Below, one piece after another: positions 11,088 through 40,313 of a stretch of DNA of 64,000 nucleotides. Numbering within the stretch: position 1 is the first letter of the stretch; each line of letters begins with the position of its first letter. This DNA is from Hysterangium stoloniferum. Taxonomy: Eukaryota; Basidiomycota; Agaricomycetes; Hysterangiales; Hysterangiaceae. The translations under genes and the position numbers were made by a program. Under the pieces are notes generated by a model. That model was not told the origin of the DNA, ran no database searches, and was given only the letters and a program-made list of their open reading frames with translations. The stretch spans positions 186,001-250,000 of the forward strand of contig WHVD01000066.1 in the NCBI GenBank assembly GCA_015178975.1, given 5' to 3'.

Positions 11088-11295
11088 TGTTAAGTTCCAG
11101 ATCTCTGGGTGGAATTTCCAGACACTTCCTGGAAATATGTCCACAGAGTTTCTGGATATTAGTTCAGGGAGTATCAGAATATTACTAGAGTATGAGATGG
11201 ACTTGGCTTCAGCTTATGTGCTGCACCCTCGTGCACTCACTCAGGCATCTATATTTTGGGGGGCAGATATATGCTGGAGTGTTTACAGATACTCA

Positions 11296-11545
11296 GAGTG
11301 CCAGAGGGTTCTGGATATCCAGAGTCTGGAGGGTTCTGGATATCCAGAGTCTGGAGGGTTCTGGATATCCAGAGTCTGGAGGGTTCTGGATATCCAGAGT
11401 CTGGAGGGTTCTGGATATCCAGAGTCTGGAGGGTTCTGGATATCCAGAGTCTGGAGGGTTCTGGATATCCAGAGTCTGGAGGGTTCTGGATATCCAGAGT
11501 CTGGAGGGTTCTGGATATCCAGAGTCTGGAGGGTTCTGGATATCA
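11296..11545. repeat. 25-bp minisatellite, nine identical units plus a partial tenth
   Basis: The word GGATATCC recurs every 25 bp from 11313 to 11513, with identical sequence between, and a decayed tenth copy at 11538. Each unit contains the 14-bp palindrome TCTGGATATCCAGA and the near-palindrome CCAGAGTCTGG. No stop codon occurs in any forward frame of the unit, so it produces spurious reading frames. Perfect copy identity inside an old LTR implies recent expansion. Confidence 0.95.
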
Positions 11546-12162
11546 AGTGTATAGAAAGAACAAAGGAGCAGATTGACTAAGTTGAGAAACAAACTAATTT
11601 GAGATTAAAACTGAGGAGTAAGTATGTACATGACTATGGAAGTCTATATATGTAGATGTTCCAAATATTGTACTACAAGTCTGGGAGTATAATAAGACCT
11701 ATTTGGAACTGTTTCCAAAATAACATATAATAACAAGTCAGATAAATGAGGATACAATGATGGGGACAGATCAGGGAATAAGGACAATAACAATAAACAA
11801 ATGAATGAACCAACCAGTTAGTTACCAAATGTGGAACAAAGGAAGTGAGTTGGAATATCCACAGATATCTGATACTATCTGGAAATGGATATTAACACTA
11901 TAATGACTAAGTGTGCATATTTCTGGGAAAGCCATGGGTTCTGGGCAGGTTGGAACATTGGCATAGAGAATTGACAAGGGTTGACAGGGATGATCAAGTG
12001 AAGGTTGGGTCATGGATTAAAGATGTATATGTTGGATATGGTTGGTTTGACAGCCTAGACTCAGCTTTAGGGCAGTGCGAATGTGTGACTGTCTTTCACA
12101 GTTTCTGTGTATATGGAATGTTAATGGCCATATAGAGTTGACTTCACTACTGAGTATCTAAA

Positions 12163-30935: not shown

Positions 30936-31734
30936 GTAAAAATAATCGCAATGGCAAGTAGGGGGAAAGGATAAAGGAATAGGTTGCTATCCTAGAACAA
31001 TAGGCCCATAACCTGTTAGAAAGCAAGACCTAATAATAATCTCAGTCTCATATATGTTATAATGGACTGTGTTAAGTACCTAATAATAATCTACAGTGCA
31101 TTTAAGTTCACTAAGAAATGAGATAAAGAAAATAAAAGATGGCTCACCCAGTCTCATATACTGTATGTTATAATGGACTGAGGTATAATGTTAGGACCAG
31201 AAAACCTGCCAGGCTCCAGACCCCATCCTACATGCACCTGACTCCCTACACCAGGTAACAGTTAACTGGAAAACCCACCAGCATCTGGATCCCATCCTAC
31301 ATACACCCGACTCCCTATACCAGGTAACAGTTAACCAGAAAACTTGCCGGCATCTGGACCCCACCTTATATGCACTCAACACCCTCTATATGTTACCCAA
31401 GTACAGTCAACCAGAGTACCTGCCAGGACCTGTGCACATCATACCTGTCTATATCTGACTCTGTCTCATGCACTAGTCACCAGACTCTGTTGAAACAGCT
31501 GAATAACACTTTGCAGAATACCCCTATGAGTGTGATTGGAAAGTAAACACTAAGGAGACTTTCCCACACCCACAGTGGACTATACTACTAGGTGCTTATC
31601 TAAGCACCTATATAGTAGTTACTGACCTAAGGTAACTCACTCAATACTGCACCTACAGTGCTGGAAAAAAATACTACAAATATCAGAAAAATATGGAGAT
31701 CATAATAAACTATGTTAGAGCTGTAGTATCATAC
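30936..31734. mobile_element. LTR-E fragment with about 66-bp tandem units, and a Tc1-like end
   Basis: 31192-31490 starts TGTTAGGACCAGAAAACC and contains three to four tandem units with core CAGTTAACTGGAAAACC, similar to the U3 of the LTR at 50562-51615. 31592-31630 is a hairpin with AGGTGCTTA/TAAGCACCT arms. At 31656 TACAGTGCTGGAAAAAAA resembles a Tc1/mariner end, cut by the chromovirus at 31735. 30936-31191 shows nothing recognisable. Confidence 0.5.
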
Positions 31735-33926
31735 TGTTAGGATACACACACAGGCCGGGTTTCCGGAGAAACCCGCGGGATATCCAGTAGGACTTGGCTT
31801 CAGCTTATAGGCTGCGCCCTCACTAGATCGTGTTGTCCAATTTCGAACAGGTGGACGGGGATCCCGGGGAGTCTGGGCGGGGTTCGTGGGTCATAGGTCG
31901 TAGGTCGTAGGTCGGAGGTTGTGGGTTGGAGGTTGTGGGTTGGAGGTTGTGGGTTGGAGGTTGTGGGTTGGAGGTTGTGGGTTGGAGGTTGTGGGTTGGA
32001 GGTTGTGGGTTGGAGGTTGTGGGTCGTGAGTCGAGTTGGTTGAGAGAGGTAGATGCGCCAGAGCCTGTGGGCTCCGACTAGTGTGAGCGATGTGAATCAA
32101 GCAAGGGTTTAGAGTGGAAAATGTTATTAGATTACTGGGGGGAATCTAAGCTAATTTTCTGACTGGATTGTATGTACAACATCTGCCAGTTTATATAGAC
32201 CGTGGAATGCATGACATACCAAATCCAGTAATGATGAAACGAAACTAACAAAACATAAAATGGGAATAGTAAACACCAAGTTTGGTGTTAGGAACGGTGT
32301 AGAGAGTTCAATCGGAAAGAGACTAATATGGCTATAGTTTCAAGTCACGTCACAGCACAAATTCTTATATATACTTTGGCGCTCAAGACGACTTCTACAC
32401 AGCCAAATCAATTTCATCAAACAGATGACTATTACTCCATCATGTTCAACACTGCATCATCCTCCAAAGTAACCCTCAGTTCCTACTCAAAACCAACTCT
32501 ACACTCCCAAATAGAACTCCAGCCAATAACATCTCGCTTCTCCTCATCCTCAGACATCATTTCCAAGCCCCTACCAGCCCACTCATGCTCCTCCAAGAAA
32601 TACCATTGTTTCCTCCGTCGACAAGGTATTCGACTCCCATATGCTCCAGATGATCCTGTCTTCATTCGTATAGAACACTATGATGGCTCCTCCAAAATCC
32701 TCCACTATCGATTTGATCGAGTGTTCTAGCAGGACTGTTCCCCACCGTCATCGGGAATCTGTTACATGGCAACATTCACTCCAATAGGAGATCACAGAGG
32801 ACCCAAGTTATTCAGGACCCCAGTTCCAGAGGGAAGTCAAGTAGAGCCTCGTCGAGGTCGTCATCGTTTTGTGTTCCTTGCGTGGTTGTGGAGCCTACTC
32901 ACCACCTGGTTCTAAAATGGTGATTGATTGTATCCCCTCCTTATACTGCAAAACTAGGAACACAATACATCCAATCTCAGTTCATCGATTGGTGATATTG
33001 TCAAGATTTCGAAATCAAGCATAGCATTTGAGGGTGATGCATTATCGTGGGATTCTTGAGTGTTTCTGACTCATATCATCAATGTTTCATCAGCCATCAC
33101 AGCTTTACTAACCCTCCTATTGTGATGACTCAGAGATGACTCACACCATATCGCATCATTATTGTGTCGTTGTTTGTAGATGTTTGATTTGACCTGTGCT
33201 CTCTCATGTATATAAGGGCCTTTCTTTTACCCACTATTGAACAAGCAATTTCGTTGTATCTCATTTCGAAGCTCATTCTTAAGGACAATCTCTTAAGTCT
33301 TACTCTCAGTCTCACTCCTACGACCAGTAAGGGATACTGTAGTGTCTCTTATTGTTGAAGTTCTACATTCTACGACATTGGGCTTACATCAGCCTTTTGT
33401 ATTCATCTTTGTTTACATCATCCAAGGTCCGATCTCTAGCCTCTCACCCCGAGTGTGTTTGGTTATAGACTGGTTTCAAGAATGACTGTGTCAGTGACCA
33501 TCATAAAGACTTGACCGTTGCACGCAGGTTATTAGGTCTTTTCCTAGTAACAAACTTACAACAGGACAGAACGGAGCAGAGTCTGAATCATGACAAAGCA
33601 TAACCCATAATGGGAGATGGAGTGGGAGTGGAGTCCTAAATCGTGACAGGTCATTTGACTAAAACGGGAATGGGGCTCGATTAGAGCAGTGATGGGATTC
33701 TAAGCGGGATCCGGTGACTGATGCATGGGATGAAGACAGACATAGACAGAGACAGAGTCTGGGGGAAGTCCGGTGACTGATATGTGTCGTAATGAGGTTG
33801 AACGTAACGAGTCTTGACGTAATGGAGTCCGGGCAGGAAATCCTATAAACAGACAATTGGTGCTTGTAGTGCATGGGGGCGTACGGGTTAGTGCCCGGAG
33901 TCCAGTGGGATTGTCCGGTCATAACA
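31735..33926 (-). repeat. 3' LTR of the chromovirus, with insertion
   Basis: TGTTAGGATACAC to GGTCATAACA, about 930 bp plus the insertion at 32298-33560. A 14-bp tandem (GAGGTTGTGGGTTG, about eight units, 31916-32028) is expanded compared with the 5' LTR. Confidence 0.93.
32298..33560. mobile_element. 1.26-kb LTR-like insertion (family J) in the 3' LTR
   Basis: Absent from the 5' LTR. It starts TGTAGAGAGTTC and ends AACTTACA; flanks aacgg/acagg resemble a decayed 5-bp duplication. At about 33206 a TGTATATAAGGGCC box is followed by a pyrimidine-rich leader, as in an LTR promoter. The left half has a 133-codon frame (32328-32729, plus) of unknown nature, rich in Ser, with the end YDGSSKILHYRFDRVF. 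Most simply a solo LTR of another family; another small element is possible. Confidence 0.6.
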
Positions 33927-34069
33927 GCACCCTCCCTTTATGCCGAAGTCCCAAAGAGGCTCTAGACCTAGATAAGGTTCTTGTCAGCTACGCGCATGTG
34001 TCAAAAGTCATGTCGGTTACATGTATGTGTCAAAGAGTCATGTGATCTGGAAGGTAAGGTTCAAATGCG

Positions 34070-35145
34070 ACGTGCCTATATATAAATTTGAAAAAATAGA
34101 AATTTCTTCTTCTTTATTACCCCCAACATCTATAGCATGGGACCAAAGCCCACGCCACGCAAGCCTATGCCAACCGCCGGGCCCTCCACAGGCAGTTCAT
34201 ACCGGGCGCCACTGTCCACTGCCCAAATCTTGGCGCAGCGGGACGAGCAATGTCATCAGCGAGAAGAGGTGGAGCGAGAAGCCCGGGAGGTTGAGGAGGC
34301 CCTGAATAGGGAATACCAGGCGGCTGTGGCCGTGGAGGAAGAGGCTGTGAGGCAGAAGCAGAGGGAGGAGGAGGAGGAGGAGGCTGCGGAGAAGGCCAGG
34401 GTGGCCGCAGAGAAAGCCCGGGTGGCCGCAGAGAGCCGTTGTTGTTGCAGGAAAGGTAAGTCCCATAATTCAACTTGTCATTTTTTTTTTGACTTGGCGT
34501 TTTCAGCACAAGGTAGGGGAAGTCGAGTCCGAGTCCGAGGGGGAGCCAGAAAGCCCCAACAAAGTGAGTCTCAGGTCCGTGGGTATACTGTGGAGCTAAC
34601 CATATCAACAGAAAGCAAGGAAGGTGGCGCCAGTCTGCCTACCAGCTCAGAATGACCCACGGTGTTCTGGTTGTAATGACCGGAACGTTGAGTGTAATCG
34701 GAAGTCCGGCTGGGGCCCAGGGTGTTACCAGTGCATGCACCTCAAGGCGAGGTGCTCACTCGTTCACAAGCAGGCCACGGGGTCCGGTAGTACACGGGAG
34801 AATGGTGGGTTGGACAGATACTCTGGTCTGGAAGAAGTCTTGGGACAGATCGCTGAGGGTATTGAAGCCCAGAATGAGTTTCTCCAGAAGAGCAACAAAG
34901 TCAGCGTCGTCATGGCGAACAATCTCCACGCAATCCGCGGGGATCACTTCAAATTCCTGATGGAGTATGCTGGCTTTGTATATGAGAAGCCAGAGGACGG
35001 GAGTTCCGAGGAGGCCAGTTCAGATGAGGAGGAGGTGCCCACGGAGGTCACAGAGCTACCTGAGGAGATGAATGAGGCGGGAAAGGCTGAGGCAGAAAAA
35101 GAGACAGGGAAAAAAGATAGCCCCATCATTGTAGATGAAGAATAG
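34070..35145 (+). CDS. Antisense accessory gene of the chromovirus, copy 1 (Zn2Cys6-like)
   Basis: Plus strand, convergent with pol. It has its own promoter-like CTATATATAAATTTG (about 34076-34090), a start ATG at 34137 (MGPKPTPRKPMPTAGPSTG), a charged coiled-coil region to about 34450, at least one clear intron (GTAAGT donor at 34455, TTTTCAG acceptor at about 34506) and probably a second (GTGAGT at about 34563 to CAACAG). The last exon (to stop at 35143) has six cysteines at about 34660-34755, spaced C-x2-C-x6-C-x9-C-x2-C-x6-C (opening CSGCNDRNVEC), then a helix (VLGQIAEGIEAQNEFLQKSN) and an acidic tail. The spacing is that of fungal Zn(II)2Cys6 clusters. Function unknown; a regulatory or nucleic-acid-binding role is inference. 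Confidence 0.7.
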
Positions 35146-38100
35146 AAAATAAAACTTAATAATAATTGAACATAAAAGTAAAGCATGAAAAACATACAAA
35201 TAAAAGTCAAAGCCAAAGTCCGCAGAGAGTCCGCTTAAAGACTTGACAAGACATGTCAGAACCTGTAAAAGCAAAGAGAGACATAGGGCGACAGGGAATA
35301 ATGAAAATGAGTCCAAATGTAACATGGGATCCACGGAGTGTGGTCAGAGAGACGATAATGGTCCAGGTTTGAGTGGGTAAGCTGTATGAAAGTCAGTAAT
35401 GATTTCCGTGGCATTACCGAGTTCCATGGCCAAAATCCATGAGGTCTCTTCATCGGTGCCCTCGTAACCCGCCCACTTGACCAAGTAAAGCAGTTTACAA
35501 GTGCGCCAATGCTTGTCAATTTTTGAATCTAAAATCTGTGAGATTTCAAACTCGGGTTCTCTGTCAATGATGACAGGAGGAGGCGGAGATTGCACACGAT
35601 CCGGGATAGTGTTAGCAGTACAAGGTTCTAACATAGAAACATGAAATACCGGGTGTACTGCGCGCATGCTATCCGGAAGCCATAGAGTCTAAGAAACTGA
35701 ACCTACTTGTGCGATAATTTCAAATGGACCTAAATATTTTTCAGCAAGCTTTTTTGATGGACAAGTAGTCTGGAAGAATTGAGCTTTGACATAAACACGG
35801 TTGCCAATCTTGAAGTTGGGTGGTGGGATCCAGTGTTTGTCCGCTGAATGTTGATATTGCTCTTGGGCGGACAATATTGCAGTCTGGAGTTCCTCATGGA
35901 GCTCATGGAGGTCTGTGGTGAACTCTTGAGCGCGAACAGAGGCAAGATTTCATTCTGGATGTACTGTAATATTTGGATTATATCCTTTATTTGCAAAGAA
36001 CAGGGAAACGCCAGTAGTGGCTGAAGGTGCATTGTTGTAAGCAAACTCTGCAAGTGGTAACAAGGATTTCCAATTGTCCTGTTGATAATTGCAATATACA
36101 CGGAGGTATTCAGGCCTGCCGGTGGGTCAAAAGTTTTGTGGTAGAAAAGTATTCCAGGTTTTTGTGATCTGTTACAATGTCAATAGGAGCTCCTGAACCT
36201 TCCAAATAGTGTCGCCACGCTTTGAAAGCTGAAAAGATTGCCAGAAGTTCTTTATCATGAACATCATAGTTGAGCTCTGCTCCGGTAAAAGTCTGGGACA
36301 GAAAAGCCACGGGGTGGACTTCTCTGTCGGAGTCCTAGATAGACAGAATGGCTCCAAGTGCATAGTCGGAGGCGTCCGTTTCAACAATGAGTGGGAAGTC
36401 CAGTTTCCAATGCGACAGAATAGGAGCTGTAGAAAAAGAATTTTTTAAAAGATTGAAAGCTTTTTGACACTTATCATTAAAATTCCATGGAGTACCCTTA
36501 TGCGTAAGACGGGTAAGGGGTACCGTGATGTCGGAATATCCACGGATAAAACGTCTGTAAAAATTGGCAAAGCCGAGGAATGATTGTATATCTTTAACTT
36601 TTCGGGGTTTGGGCCAATCTTTGATGACTTGCACTTTAGTTTCATCCATGCGGAGTCCATCGGGTCCCATCATGAAACCTAGGTATTCCACGGAGTCCAT
36701 GTCAAAAGTACATTTTTTACCATTTACAAATAAACCATGTTGTCTGAGCCTCCGGAGAACTTCACAGACTTGTTTGTCATGTTCCACGGGATTCTCGGAG
36801 TAGATAAGAATGTCATCCAAGTAAACAATGATGCATACATCAAGCATGTCGGAGAAAATGTCATTGATAAAATGCTGAAAAACAGACGGAGCATTGGTGA
36901 GTCCAAAGGGGATGACCAACCACTCGAAGGCCCCATAACAGGTTCTAAAAGTGGTTTTCCATTCGTCGCCCACAGCAATCCAGACCAAATGATAGGTGTG
37001 TTTGAGATCAATTTTGGTATAAATCCGGGCATTCCGCGGAGCATCGAGCAGGTCAGATATAAGTGGGAGTGGATATTTATCCTTCTTGGTGACAGCATTG
37101 AGTCCTCTAAAATCAACACATAGTCGAAGGGATCCATCCTTTTTTCTGACAAACAGAACAGGTGCTCCAAAAGGAGACTTTGAGGGTCGGATAAAACCTA
37201 TGGACAAATGTTCATCCAGGAAATCGCAGATTGCGGATAGTTCTGTGGACGAGAGCGGGTAAATATGTCCTAGGAGTGGCTGGGCGCCATCTTCAAGATT
37301 GATTTTTAGGTCGTATTCTCTGTGAGGCGGAAGCCGGTCAGCTTTTCGCTTGCTGAAAACATCTGCGAAGTCATGATATTTCTCCGGGACGCCTTCTAGG
37401 TCAGCGGCTTGCTCAGATTCAGATACCGGGGTTGAAAAACGTCCAGTTGCTTCATCAATTTTTAAGTTGATAGTGAACGCCTGGGAACCATCCATTTTTG
37501 AAGCCCTAATAAAAGCTGCAGCATTAATCAGAGAAATGGAGAGAGGTGCTGTGGGTTCCGGGGAAGCTATTGGTGCCGTAGGGATCACAGGAGTCCTTGA
37601 GACTGCAGGTGCCGGGAAGGCCATGGGTGCCGTGGAGGCCGAGACAGGCGCAGTTTTCTCAGCTGCCGTGGGAGTCCAGAATGTTATACTGTTAGCTATC
37701 CAGTCAATCAACAGATTGTAGTGGGTAAGCCAGTTATGTCCTAGGACCACCGAGCAACTTGAGTCTAACTGGGTCACATAGAAAGTGACCAATTGAGATA
37801 TTCCACAAGGGAAACTGATGGGTAAATCACAAGCTTGGGTAACAACCAAATTACTTGTGCCATTGAAGAGGTGGAGACCGACGGGATTTATTGAATAAGT
37901 TGACAAAGAATTTTTTTTGCGTGAATTTTGTATCTAAAAAACAATGAGTCGAGCCGGAATCTATAAGAGCTGAAAAAACGAGTTTCGGGATCATATTAGA
38001 CATAAGTTTAACAAAAAATGAATCAGAATGTGAAAGAGCGGATGCATTGAGGTGAGTAAACTCTTGAATGTGCGGAGAGGCAACGCAACCCCCAACCCGT

Positions 38101-39429
38101 GCGGAGTCCACGGGGTTGCTTACTCTTTTTTCAAATCGGCAGCCAGTTTGTCCTTCGACGGGGTTTCCGTGGAGGCTTTGGTTGATTGACCCTTTGAAGA
38201 GTTTGCTTTTGCCAGTGGACATTCCGGGACTCGATGACCGGGTTTCCCGCACAAGAGACAGAGGTTGTTGTCCATACGACATTGTCTTTCCTGTGGAGTC
38301 AATTTGCCATTGGGTCCGAGTTTGCCTGAGAGGTTGGGTTTTCCGGCTTGCTTGCCAGACTTGACCCTTGTTATTGTCCTTATTGTCCTTATTGTTGTTG
38401 TTGTTTGAAGACTTTTTATCATTCTTCTTGTCTGATTGCGTGGAGTTCTGGTTGCTGGTTGATGAATTATTGTTGTTGTTTTTATTGGCCATGGACTTGT
38501 TCACTTTGTCCACGGAGGTCTCGCGGGCAACTTCTGCGCGACGTTCCCAATAACGTGCATCCGTGTTTTGAGCTTTGAGGCACATACAGGACAGGGTTTT
38601 TGGCTTGGCATCTTCTCCTTTTGAGACTTCGTCTTTAAGGCAGGACGGCAGACCGGCGTAGAATTGGTGGCGGAGAGCGGGATCGCCCCACTGACAGCAA
38701 GCTGCAAGATTATTGAATTGGACGATGTAGTCCGTGATGCGCTGCATGTTCTTCATACAAAGATTTGTGAGACTATTCTCGGCTTCTCCTGTCGGGTCAT
38801 ATGGGCCGAAGTTGGTTTCAAGCTCCTCAACAAAAGCTTCCCAATTTTCGAGCCAGAGCAGCTCTTCCTCGGAAATCCCGCTAAAAGCCAGTTCGAACCA
38901 TTTCAATGTGGATCCCAACAAATATGACAGTGCATAGTTGACTTTTCGGGAGTCCATGGAGAATGCAGCAGCACGATCATGGAAATTGAAGTGACATTGC
39001 ATGAGGAAAGTGGAGAGTTTGTTTGGGTTGGAACCCGTGAAGGGTTCCGGAGCATTGACTTTTGACCGTGGAGGTTCTTGTTCCTTTTTCTTTCGTTCTT
39101 CGAGCAGGTGCATCATGAATTTATCTATAGTACCTGCTAAAAACTCAGTAGTAGGATCCCTCGCGTGCGGTCGTTCAATAGGCGGAGAATTTTCAGGAGG
39201 AATTTCAACACCTTTGCCCTTGTCAGGGGCCACGGATTCATCCTCGTGCTCGGATTCGTCCTGGTTTTCCAGGACTTCTTCGATACAGGCTTCTTCCATG
39301 GGTTCCGACTGGTTCACAAGTGTCTGACTGGTATACAGAGTTAACGGGGAATGAAGAGTCAATGGTCCAGGTAATGATGACTGTGTGCGTGTACTTCTTC
39401 TTGGTGGCATAATGCAAACAATCTGCGAG

Positions 39430-39446
39430 TATTAGTCAGAAAATAC
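39430..39446 (-). promoter_or_regulatory. Primer-binding site, apparently self-primed
   Basis: Directly behind the 5' LTR (minus strand) lies ATTTTCTGACT (39444-39434). Its complement AGTCAGAAAAT occurs inside the LTR (39813-39803), 38 nt downstream of the start of the TATATAAA box (39851-39844), i.e. where transcription should begin. This is the geometry of Tf1/sushi-type self-priming, where the transcript 5' end folds back on the PBS. No TGG (tRNA-CCA) start is present. Confidence 0.65.
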
Positions 39447-40313
39447 TGTTAGGATACACACACAGGCCAGGTTTCCAGAGAAACCCACAGGATATCCAGT
39501 AGGACTTGGCTTCAGCTTATAGGCTGTGCCCTCACTAGATCGTGTTGTCCAATTTTGAACAGGCGGACAGGGATCCCAGGGAGTCTGGGCGGGGTTTGTG
39601 GGTCGTAGGTCGTAGGTCGGAGGTCGGAGGTCGGAGGTCGTGGGTCGGAGGTCGTGGGTCAGAGGTCGTGGGTCGTGAGTCGAGTTGGTCGAGAGAGGTA
39701 GATGTGCCAGAGCCCGTGGGCTCCGACTAGTGCGAGCGATGTGAATCAAGCAAGGGTTTAGAACGGAAAATGTTATTAGATTACTGGGGGGAATCTAAGC
39801 TAATTTTCTGACTGGATTGTACTGTATGTACAACATCTGCCAGTTTATATAGACCGTGGAATGCATGACATACCAAATCCAGTAATGATGAAACGAAACT
39901 AACAAAACATAAAACGGGAATAGTAAACACCAAGTTTGGTGTTAGGAACAGGACCGAACGGAGCGGAGTCTGAATCGTGACAAAGCATAACCCATAATGG
40001 GAGATGGAGCGGGAGCGGAGTCCTAAATCGTGACAGGTCATTTGACTAAAACGGGAACAGGGCTCGATTAGAGTGGTGATGGGATTCTAAGTGGGATCTG
40101 GTGACTGATGCGTGGGACGAAGATGGACATAGACGGAGACGGAGTCTGGGGGAAGTCCGGTGACTGATATGTGTCGTAATGAGGTCAAACGTAACGAGTC
40201 TTGATGTAATGGAGTCTAGGCGGGAAATCCTATAAACAGACAATTGGTGCTTGTAGTGCGTGGGGGCATACGGGTTAGTGCCCAGAGTTTGGCGGGATTG
40301 TCTGGTCATAACA
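39447..40313 (-). repeat. 5' LTR of the chromovirus
   Basis: TGTTAGGATACAC to GGTCATAACA, 867 bp. Apart from the insertion and tandem expansion it is very close to the 3' LTR, with differences mostly C/T and G/A. Confidence 0.95.

Follow-up and report, generated by a model that had tools for sequence, protein, structure and literature searches.

A chromovirus copy in the window, as we call the whole stretch of 64,000 nucleotides analyzed, carries a gene on the strand opposite to pol, between the pol end and the 3' LTR. This raises the question of whether the gene encodes a protein maintained by selection, and what such a protein might do for the element that carries it.

The host element is a Ty3/gypsy chromovirus, as a sequence-only reading of the window had claimed: gag, the reverse transcriptase and the start of RNase H are carried by two long ORFs on the minus strand and accompanied by LTRs; a domain scan of the reference locus L040 found gag, protease, reverse transcriptase, RNase H and integrase along with LTRs; and in the relative L039 the chromodomain scores above the Pfam cut-off (30.7 versus 25.1 bits). 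The pol end of the window copy, where Pfam gave no match in the ORF 35730–36179, is assigned by homology. The parts of the element are:

36335–37933, minus strand: pol, with the reverse transcriptase and the start of RNase H (Pfam scan)
37851–39431, minus strand: gag and the next coding stretch (Pfam scan)
35349–36179, approximate, minus strand: pol end, integrase C-terminus and chromodomain (homology with L039 and L040, where the domains were scanned)
39443–40313, approximate, minus strand: 5' LTR (LTR comparison)
31731–33926, approximate, minus strand: 3' LTR, interrupted by an insertion at about 32298–33559

The insertion that splits the 3' LTR is about 1.26 kb long, has its own TATATAAGGG stretch and may be a solo LTR. 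Elsewhere in the window, positions 11254–11603 hold a tandem array with a 25-base unit, seen as ten overlapping 125-base matches in 25-base steps.

The antisense gene is small and spliced, has a predicted product of about 300 residues and converges with pol, the two stops being separated by about 200 bp in the window. Its features, together with those of a second copy, are:

34046–34065, plus strand: conserved word TCTGGAAGGTAAGGTTCAAA upstream of the TATA box (word counts)
34077–34086, plus strand: TATA box of the antisense gene (sequence; kept in most of 22 aligned upstream stretches)
34137–35145, plus strand: antisense gene from ATG to stop, between the pol end and the 3' LTR, gag-pol being on the minus strand
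34137–34455, plus strand: exon 1, comprising the N-terminal part and a charged, coiled-coil-like stretch; the window copy has lost phase here
34456–34506, plus strand: intron 1 (GTAAGT...CAG), placed via homology with L040
34507–34563, plus strand: exon 2, acidic segment HKVGEVESESEGEPESPNK (sequence and alignment)
34564–34611, plus strand: intron 2 (GTGAGT...CAG), placed via homology with L040
34612–35145, plus strand: exon 3, six-cysteine array, predicted long helix, acidic tail and C-terminal SPIIVDEE
16979 (approximate)–17973, minus strand: decayed second copy of the antisense gene, the pol of that copy being on the plus strand

The claim that the gene has its own TATA box and one or more introns antisense to pol thus stands, with two introns, and direct reading of exon 3 gives the cysteine spacing described before, C-x2-C-x6-C-x9-C-x2-C-x6-C. 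The first part of the predicted long helix is conserved and the second part is variable. Both introns are in phase 0 in L040, and in 49 of the 51 loci that span both of them all four GT/AG dinucleotides are intact. Mean column conservation in the 51 loci is 0.75 in the intron interiors versus 0.98–1.00 at the intron ends; 31 of them have an intron 1, and 22 an intron 2, whose length is not divisible by three. Exon 3 is open in 40 of the 51 loci spanning the gene, and all three exons are open and in phase in 13; L040 has two stops in exon 1. The window copy is probably broken, since phase is lost where its exon 1 meets intron 1. We infer that introns can persist in this gene because it is antisense to the RNA that is reverse-transcribed.

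Conservation had been claimed for two copies. Both window copies are real, and all six cysteines are indeed present in the decayed one, but the family is far larger: a search of the genome (111.1 Mb) yielded 1408 first-look candidates, and all 150 of those scored are matches, 122 of the 150 matched stretches being without a stop. Queries derived from the 17 kb copy reach more distant families, down to 31–60% identity. The proposed linkage to retroelements was found in most loci. The gene is convergent with the pol end in 58 of 74 distinct loci (79 rows minus five repeats, L010 and L052–L055; a non-random sample drawn from similarity lists), it has no pol in the stretch examined in 15, several of which have short flanks, and it lies on the same strand in one. 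The latter, L076 (C38), is probably a rearranged copy: at 839–1648, a single open frame of 255 residues continues from the gene into integrase-like sequence on that strand.

The upstream word occurs twice in the window versus 0.01 expected and is conserved across element families. For the 17-base word CTGGAAGGTAARGTTCA, the genome holds 579 exact copies versus none for the reversed control. Among the 87 loci examined (eight host loci and five duplicates included), 54 contain the exact 17-base core, each a single time, and the core sits upstream of the gene at every locus where positions were compared by eye. As it occurs only once in L040, which has both LTRs, it is not an LTR feature. The TATA box starts about 30 bases past the start of the upstream word, and we regard the two as the putative promoter of the antisense gene. 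The word at 34046–34065 contains the direct repeat AAGGT-AAGGT, a possible half-site pair.

The antisense gene is a protein-coding gene under purifying selection. Its dN/dS, proposed earlier as a check, is about 0.2–0.3 and not near one; the median is 0.26 for the gene versus 0.25 for the pol end (filtering for pol dS above 0.02 and gene dS below 1.5 left 728 of 899 pairs), and positive selection on the whole gene was rejected on this median. Replacement changes (N, 56/392) are rarer than silent ones (S, 55/118) between L040 and L039 (Fisher 2e-12), the same holds in eight of eight pairs (Fisher p from 1.0e-3 to 2e-12), and third codon positions hold the excess of change in all three exons. 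The array is readable in 71 of 73 sequences, and all six cysteines are kept in 61 of the 71, a count that does not require the pattern; it is the unbiased one, because the pattern behind the spacing count of 57 out of 57 (72 loci scanned, 15 without a match) demands six cysteines and fixes the first two gaps.

These data bear on two explanations that give the protein no role in the element. An antisense transcript, not a protein, could limit copy number via interference or dsRNA, as the convergent layout and the strongly conserved upstream word might suggest; an RNA mechanism alone, however, does not predict a dN/dS of 0.1–0.3, and codon-level purifying selection, the splice sites and the cysteine spacing indicate that the protein matters, so that we regard this explanation as very unlikely. 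Alternatively, the gene could be a passenger, captured from the host and of no benefit to the element, since its six-cysteine spacing resembles that of host Zn2Cys6 genes. This is hardly credible: captured passengers would decay, while selection acts on this gene in several families, and protein identity among the 16 aligned members falls to about 42%; dN/dS across families already contradicts a passenger.

The earlier reading called the gene Zn2Cys6-like, its spacing being the consensus of the fungal Zn(II)2Cys6 family (PF00172). Members of this family bind two zinc ions and CGG-type DNA and have the spacing C-x2-C-x6-C-x5..12-C-x2-C-x6..8-C, with which the spacing of the antisense protein agrees; as in PF00172 proteins, a linker and then a predicted helix come after the array. 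In contrast, the loop past the second cysteine, usually basic in the family, is mostly N-D-x-N-T-[ED] here, and none of 16 members exceeds the gathering cut-off of Pfam Zn_clus, ten of them matching at E <= 1 with the best E at 0.012. Comparison by eye placed no listed gene copy at the site of any of the 42 genomic PF00172 matches in the list. An hhalign comparison with five Zn2Cys6 domains of the same genome, run with no negative control, aligned the six cysteines with a probability of 12.5% and an E of 0.0023. Sequence searches in Pfam, NCBIfam and PDB gave no significant match to any DNA-binding family; the best PDB matches, to Talin-1 (E 0.0011), involve the linker and helix only and were taken as helical similarity. 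As to candidate targets upstream of the gene, counts of CGG/CCG gave little result, and an exact CCGGTGACTGA word stands in four of the 17 stretches compared, many of which are short. The spacing claim stands, and the protein may be called Zn(II)2Cys6 by spacing; membership in the family is not established by a significant test.

Tandem Zn2Cys6 motifs in one frame are unusual for ordinary host regulators. Two such motifs are found in tandem in one frame in L002 (C115), positions 1369–1611, and likewise among the C56 hits.

Comparison of the copies revealed a feature absent from the earlier reading, an apparent exchange of gene classes that is gene-wide and sharply bounded. Elements about 94% identical in the flanks and pol carry either of two gene classes, which are about 75% identical. 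We compared 12 type 1 and five type 2 loci, chosen by us among those spanning the region. Between the types, identity is 94.1% in the 5' flank, 93.2% in the 3' flank and 94.2% at the pol end, and it is 75.4%, 78.1% and 75.2% in exons 1, 2 and 3 and 77.5% and 67.7% in introns 1 and 2; between type 1 loci the 5' flank, 3' flank and pol end are 94.2%, 92.6% and 93.4% identical, and the exons and introns 88–92%. L040 and the type 2 locus L039 are 92–99% identical from pol to the inner LTR and 71–84% in windows over the gene; in their alignment, the drop starts a few bases before the ATG and ends some tens of bases past the stop. Gene dS is at least 0.57 between the types (176 pairs) and at most 0.52 between type 1 loci (231 pairs), with no overlap, whereas the pol dS ranges nearly coincide (0.05–0.26 and 0.06–0.23, respectively).

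Faster local mutation might produce such a sharp divergence without any exchange. Gene dS is 2.3–2.9 times pol dS in other pair classes too, and the gene is CpG-rich, with 6.9 CpG per 100 versus 3.7 and 4.4 in the flanks; the general excess of gene dS goes at least partly with this higher content. However, transversions, which CpG decay does not make, rise between the types from about 1% outside the gene (5' flank 1.4%, 3' flank 0.8%, pol end 0.9%) to 7–17% within it (exons 1 to 3: 10.9%, 7.1% and 10.1%; introns 1 and 2: 17.2% and 12.9%), versus 1.9–3.3% in the gene within type 1. This rules out CpG decay as the source of the jump, which the introns share, and makes faster local mutation highly improbable.

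For 32 loci, the full gene and pol-end trees are mutually rejected (AU 6.5e-7 and 3.3e-6), and in the pol-end tree type 2 falls inside type 1, two type 2 loci adjoining L040 and L013 with support of 89–90. Topology alone was dropped as proof of exchange because the targeted pol-end constraints are not rejected at 0.05 (both types as clades, AU p 0.057; type 2 as a clade, p 0.24); the case for exchange thus rests on divergence, and, as the constraint to two clades is not firmly rejected, a single old replacement would be enough, and more than one exchange is unproven. The simplest account is at least one replacement of the whole gene between backbones; repeated exchange of the gene classes is possible. 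Either way, the pattern suggests recombination that acts on the accessory gene as one unit.

The classes do not differ evenly along the protein. In 21 type 1 versus eight type 2 exon 3 sequences, dN/dS between the classes is 0.09 in the cysteine array, 0.11 in the first helix part, 0.79 in the second helix part (residues 99–128 in L040 numbering; 41% amino acid identity), 0.34 in the acidic stretch and 0.09 at the C-terminus. The variable segment lies outside the cysteine module, and a conserved cysteine module and conserved helix next to a variable helix are what is expected for one fixed and one changing partner. AlphaFold2, run on window sequences only, gave a poor model (mean pLDDT 56.5, pTM 0.28), within which a helix is predicted at 71–119 with pLDDT 72–84. 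At the C-terminus, P172 and I173 are invariant in all 16 aligned members, most of which share a P-I-x-V/I-acidic ending; presumably, this pattern resembles a SUMO-interacting motif.

Such an ending, together with a variable segment of 30 residues between conserved modules, would suit a protein that binds a host restriction or SUMO-pathway protein, the classes reflecting an arms race with host alleles. Yet dN/dS in the variable segment is 0.79 and not above one, and the cysteine module would need a separate role; we consider a target in the host unlikely.

VANDAL elements are Arabidopsis DNA transposons. Their anti-silencing VANC proteins are likewise accessory proteins encoded by the element, and relatives are reported to act on different element sets (PMC5735166). 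A VANC-like protein might free its own copies from host DNA methylation, with the classes corresponding to different targets, for which a fixed module with a variable segment is well suited. Arginine positions of the cysteine array read R, Q or W among the G000 copies, a mark of CpG decay on both strands, and, with the excess of transitions in the CpG-rich gene, this suggests that copies of the element may be DNA-methylated. On the other hand, the sequence between LTR and gene is alike in both classes, and L039, the sole type 2 locus that extends that far, matches L040 at 95% identity in the inner LTR, so that a class-specific DNA target is not seen there. We hold an anti-silencing role to be doubtful, though not as unlikely as a host target. 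The outer part of the LTR (L040 440–800) is 87% identical between L039 and L040, 82–91% in windows, and forms a second, milder diverged block.

For this gene, with its observed structure, selection, conserved splice sites and upstream word and bounded divergence classes, the reading we put first, while holding it tentatively, is a trans-acting self-regulator of the element that has class specificity and is exchanged as a specificity cassette. Integrated copies would express the protein from a promoter belonging to the antisense gene; the Cys6 module presumably binds zinc; the protein would enter the nucleus, dimerize via the helix that follows the cysteine module and bind the DNA or chromatin of the element, so as to regulate the expression of its own element in trans, be it by feedback control or by protection from silencing. 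Partners would be specified by the helix's variable half, with each class acting on, or together with, its own kind. Backbones would trade gene classes as whole genes, perhaps more than once, with template switching while the RNA is reverse-transcribed as the probable route, and chimaeras within the gene would be selected against. A related reading, possible but rather unlikely, is that of a locus of self/non-self specificity, whose logic would be like that of phage immunity regions: the zinc module and helix would stay fixed on a shared target, the hypervariable helix segment would pick which copies interact, and exchange of the whole gene between near-identical backbones would allow copies to escape or maintain cross-control.

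With the self-regulator as our preferred reading, these data suggest that the antisense gene may set how each element controls or recognizes itself. Many copies in one genome form a natural data set, in which a selected gene, conserved introns, a conserved upstream word and discrete classes come on a shared backbone, and comparing the regulator classes makes self-control or self-recognition within a retrotransposon family testable.

Accessory genes in antisense orientation are known from plant LTR retrotransposons, where they have no assigned function, and from retroviruses. In the open-access literature, most subscription journals being outside it, the titles and abstract openings listed yielded no spliced six-cysteine antisense gene that is exchanged as a unit in a chromovirus. 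Novikova et al. 2010 mention an extra ORF, its function unknown, for a fungal gypsy element in the legend to a figure that shows full-length fungal and spikemoss elements (PMC2864245); since the text consulted gives neither the host element nor the orientation or sequence of this ORF, we do not claim that the gene described here is the first of its kind in fungi.

Closest in position are plant retrotransposons of the Retand lineage, for which Grande and RIRE2 are cited: they are reported to carry antisense TRP28 ORFs in the interval from pol to the 3' LTR, and these ORFs, which almost every recently active cluster in that study contains, are suspected of a DNA-binding, regulatory role (PMC11963269). 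The gene in the window has the same position. Unlike these elements, which are not chromoviruses and encode TRP28 (PF04195), its host is a chromovirus in a fungal-type genome, and the gene has a six-cysteine module, two short introns and two classes on one backbone; TRP28 gave no match at E <= 1 in the 16 exon 3 proteins or exon 1 of the window. Among retroviruses, the antisense proteins of deltaretroviruses, such as HBZ of HTLV-1, are reported to be encoded at the 3' LTR end and made from their own promoter via a spliced transcript, and HBZ, a bZIP protein, to be a nuclear regulator that lowers sense expression (PMC10186651). The antisense gene is also near the 3' LTR and, judged from its sequence alone, has introns and a promoter-like region, but with a Cys6 module instead of bZIP, for which no match at E <= 1 was found in exon 1 of the window or the 16 exon 3 proteins; we claim no homology with HBZ. 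By analogy, we think that the antisense gene works like a regulator of the HBZ or Retand type while being a member of neither.
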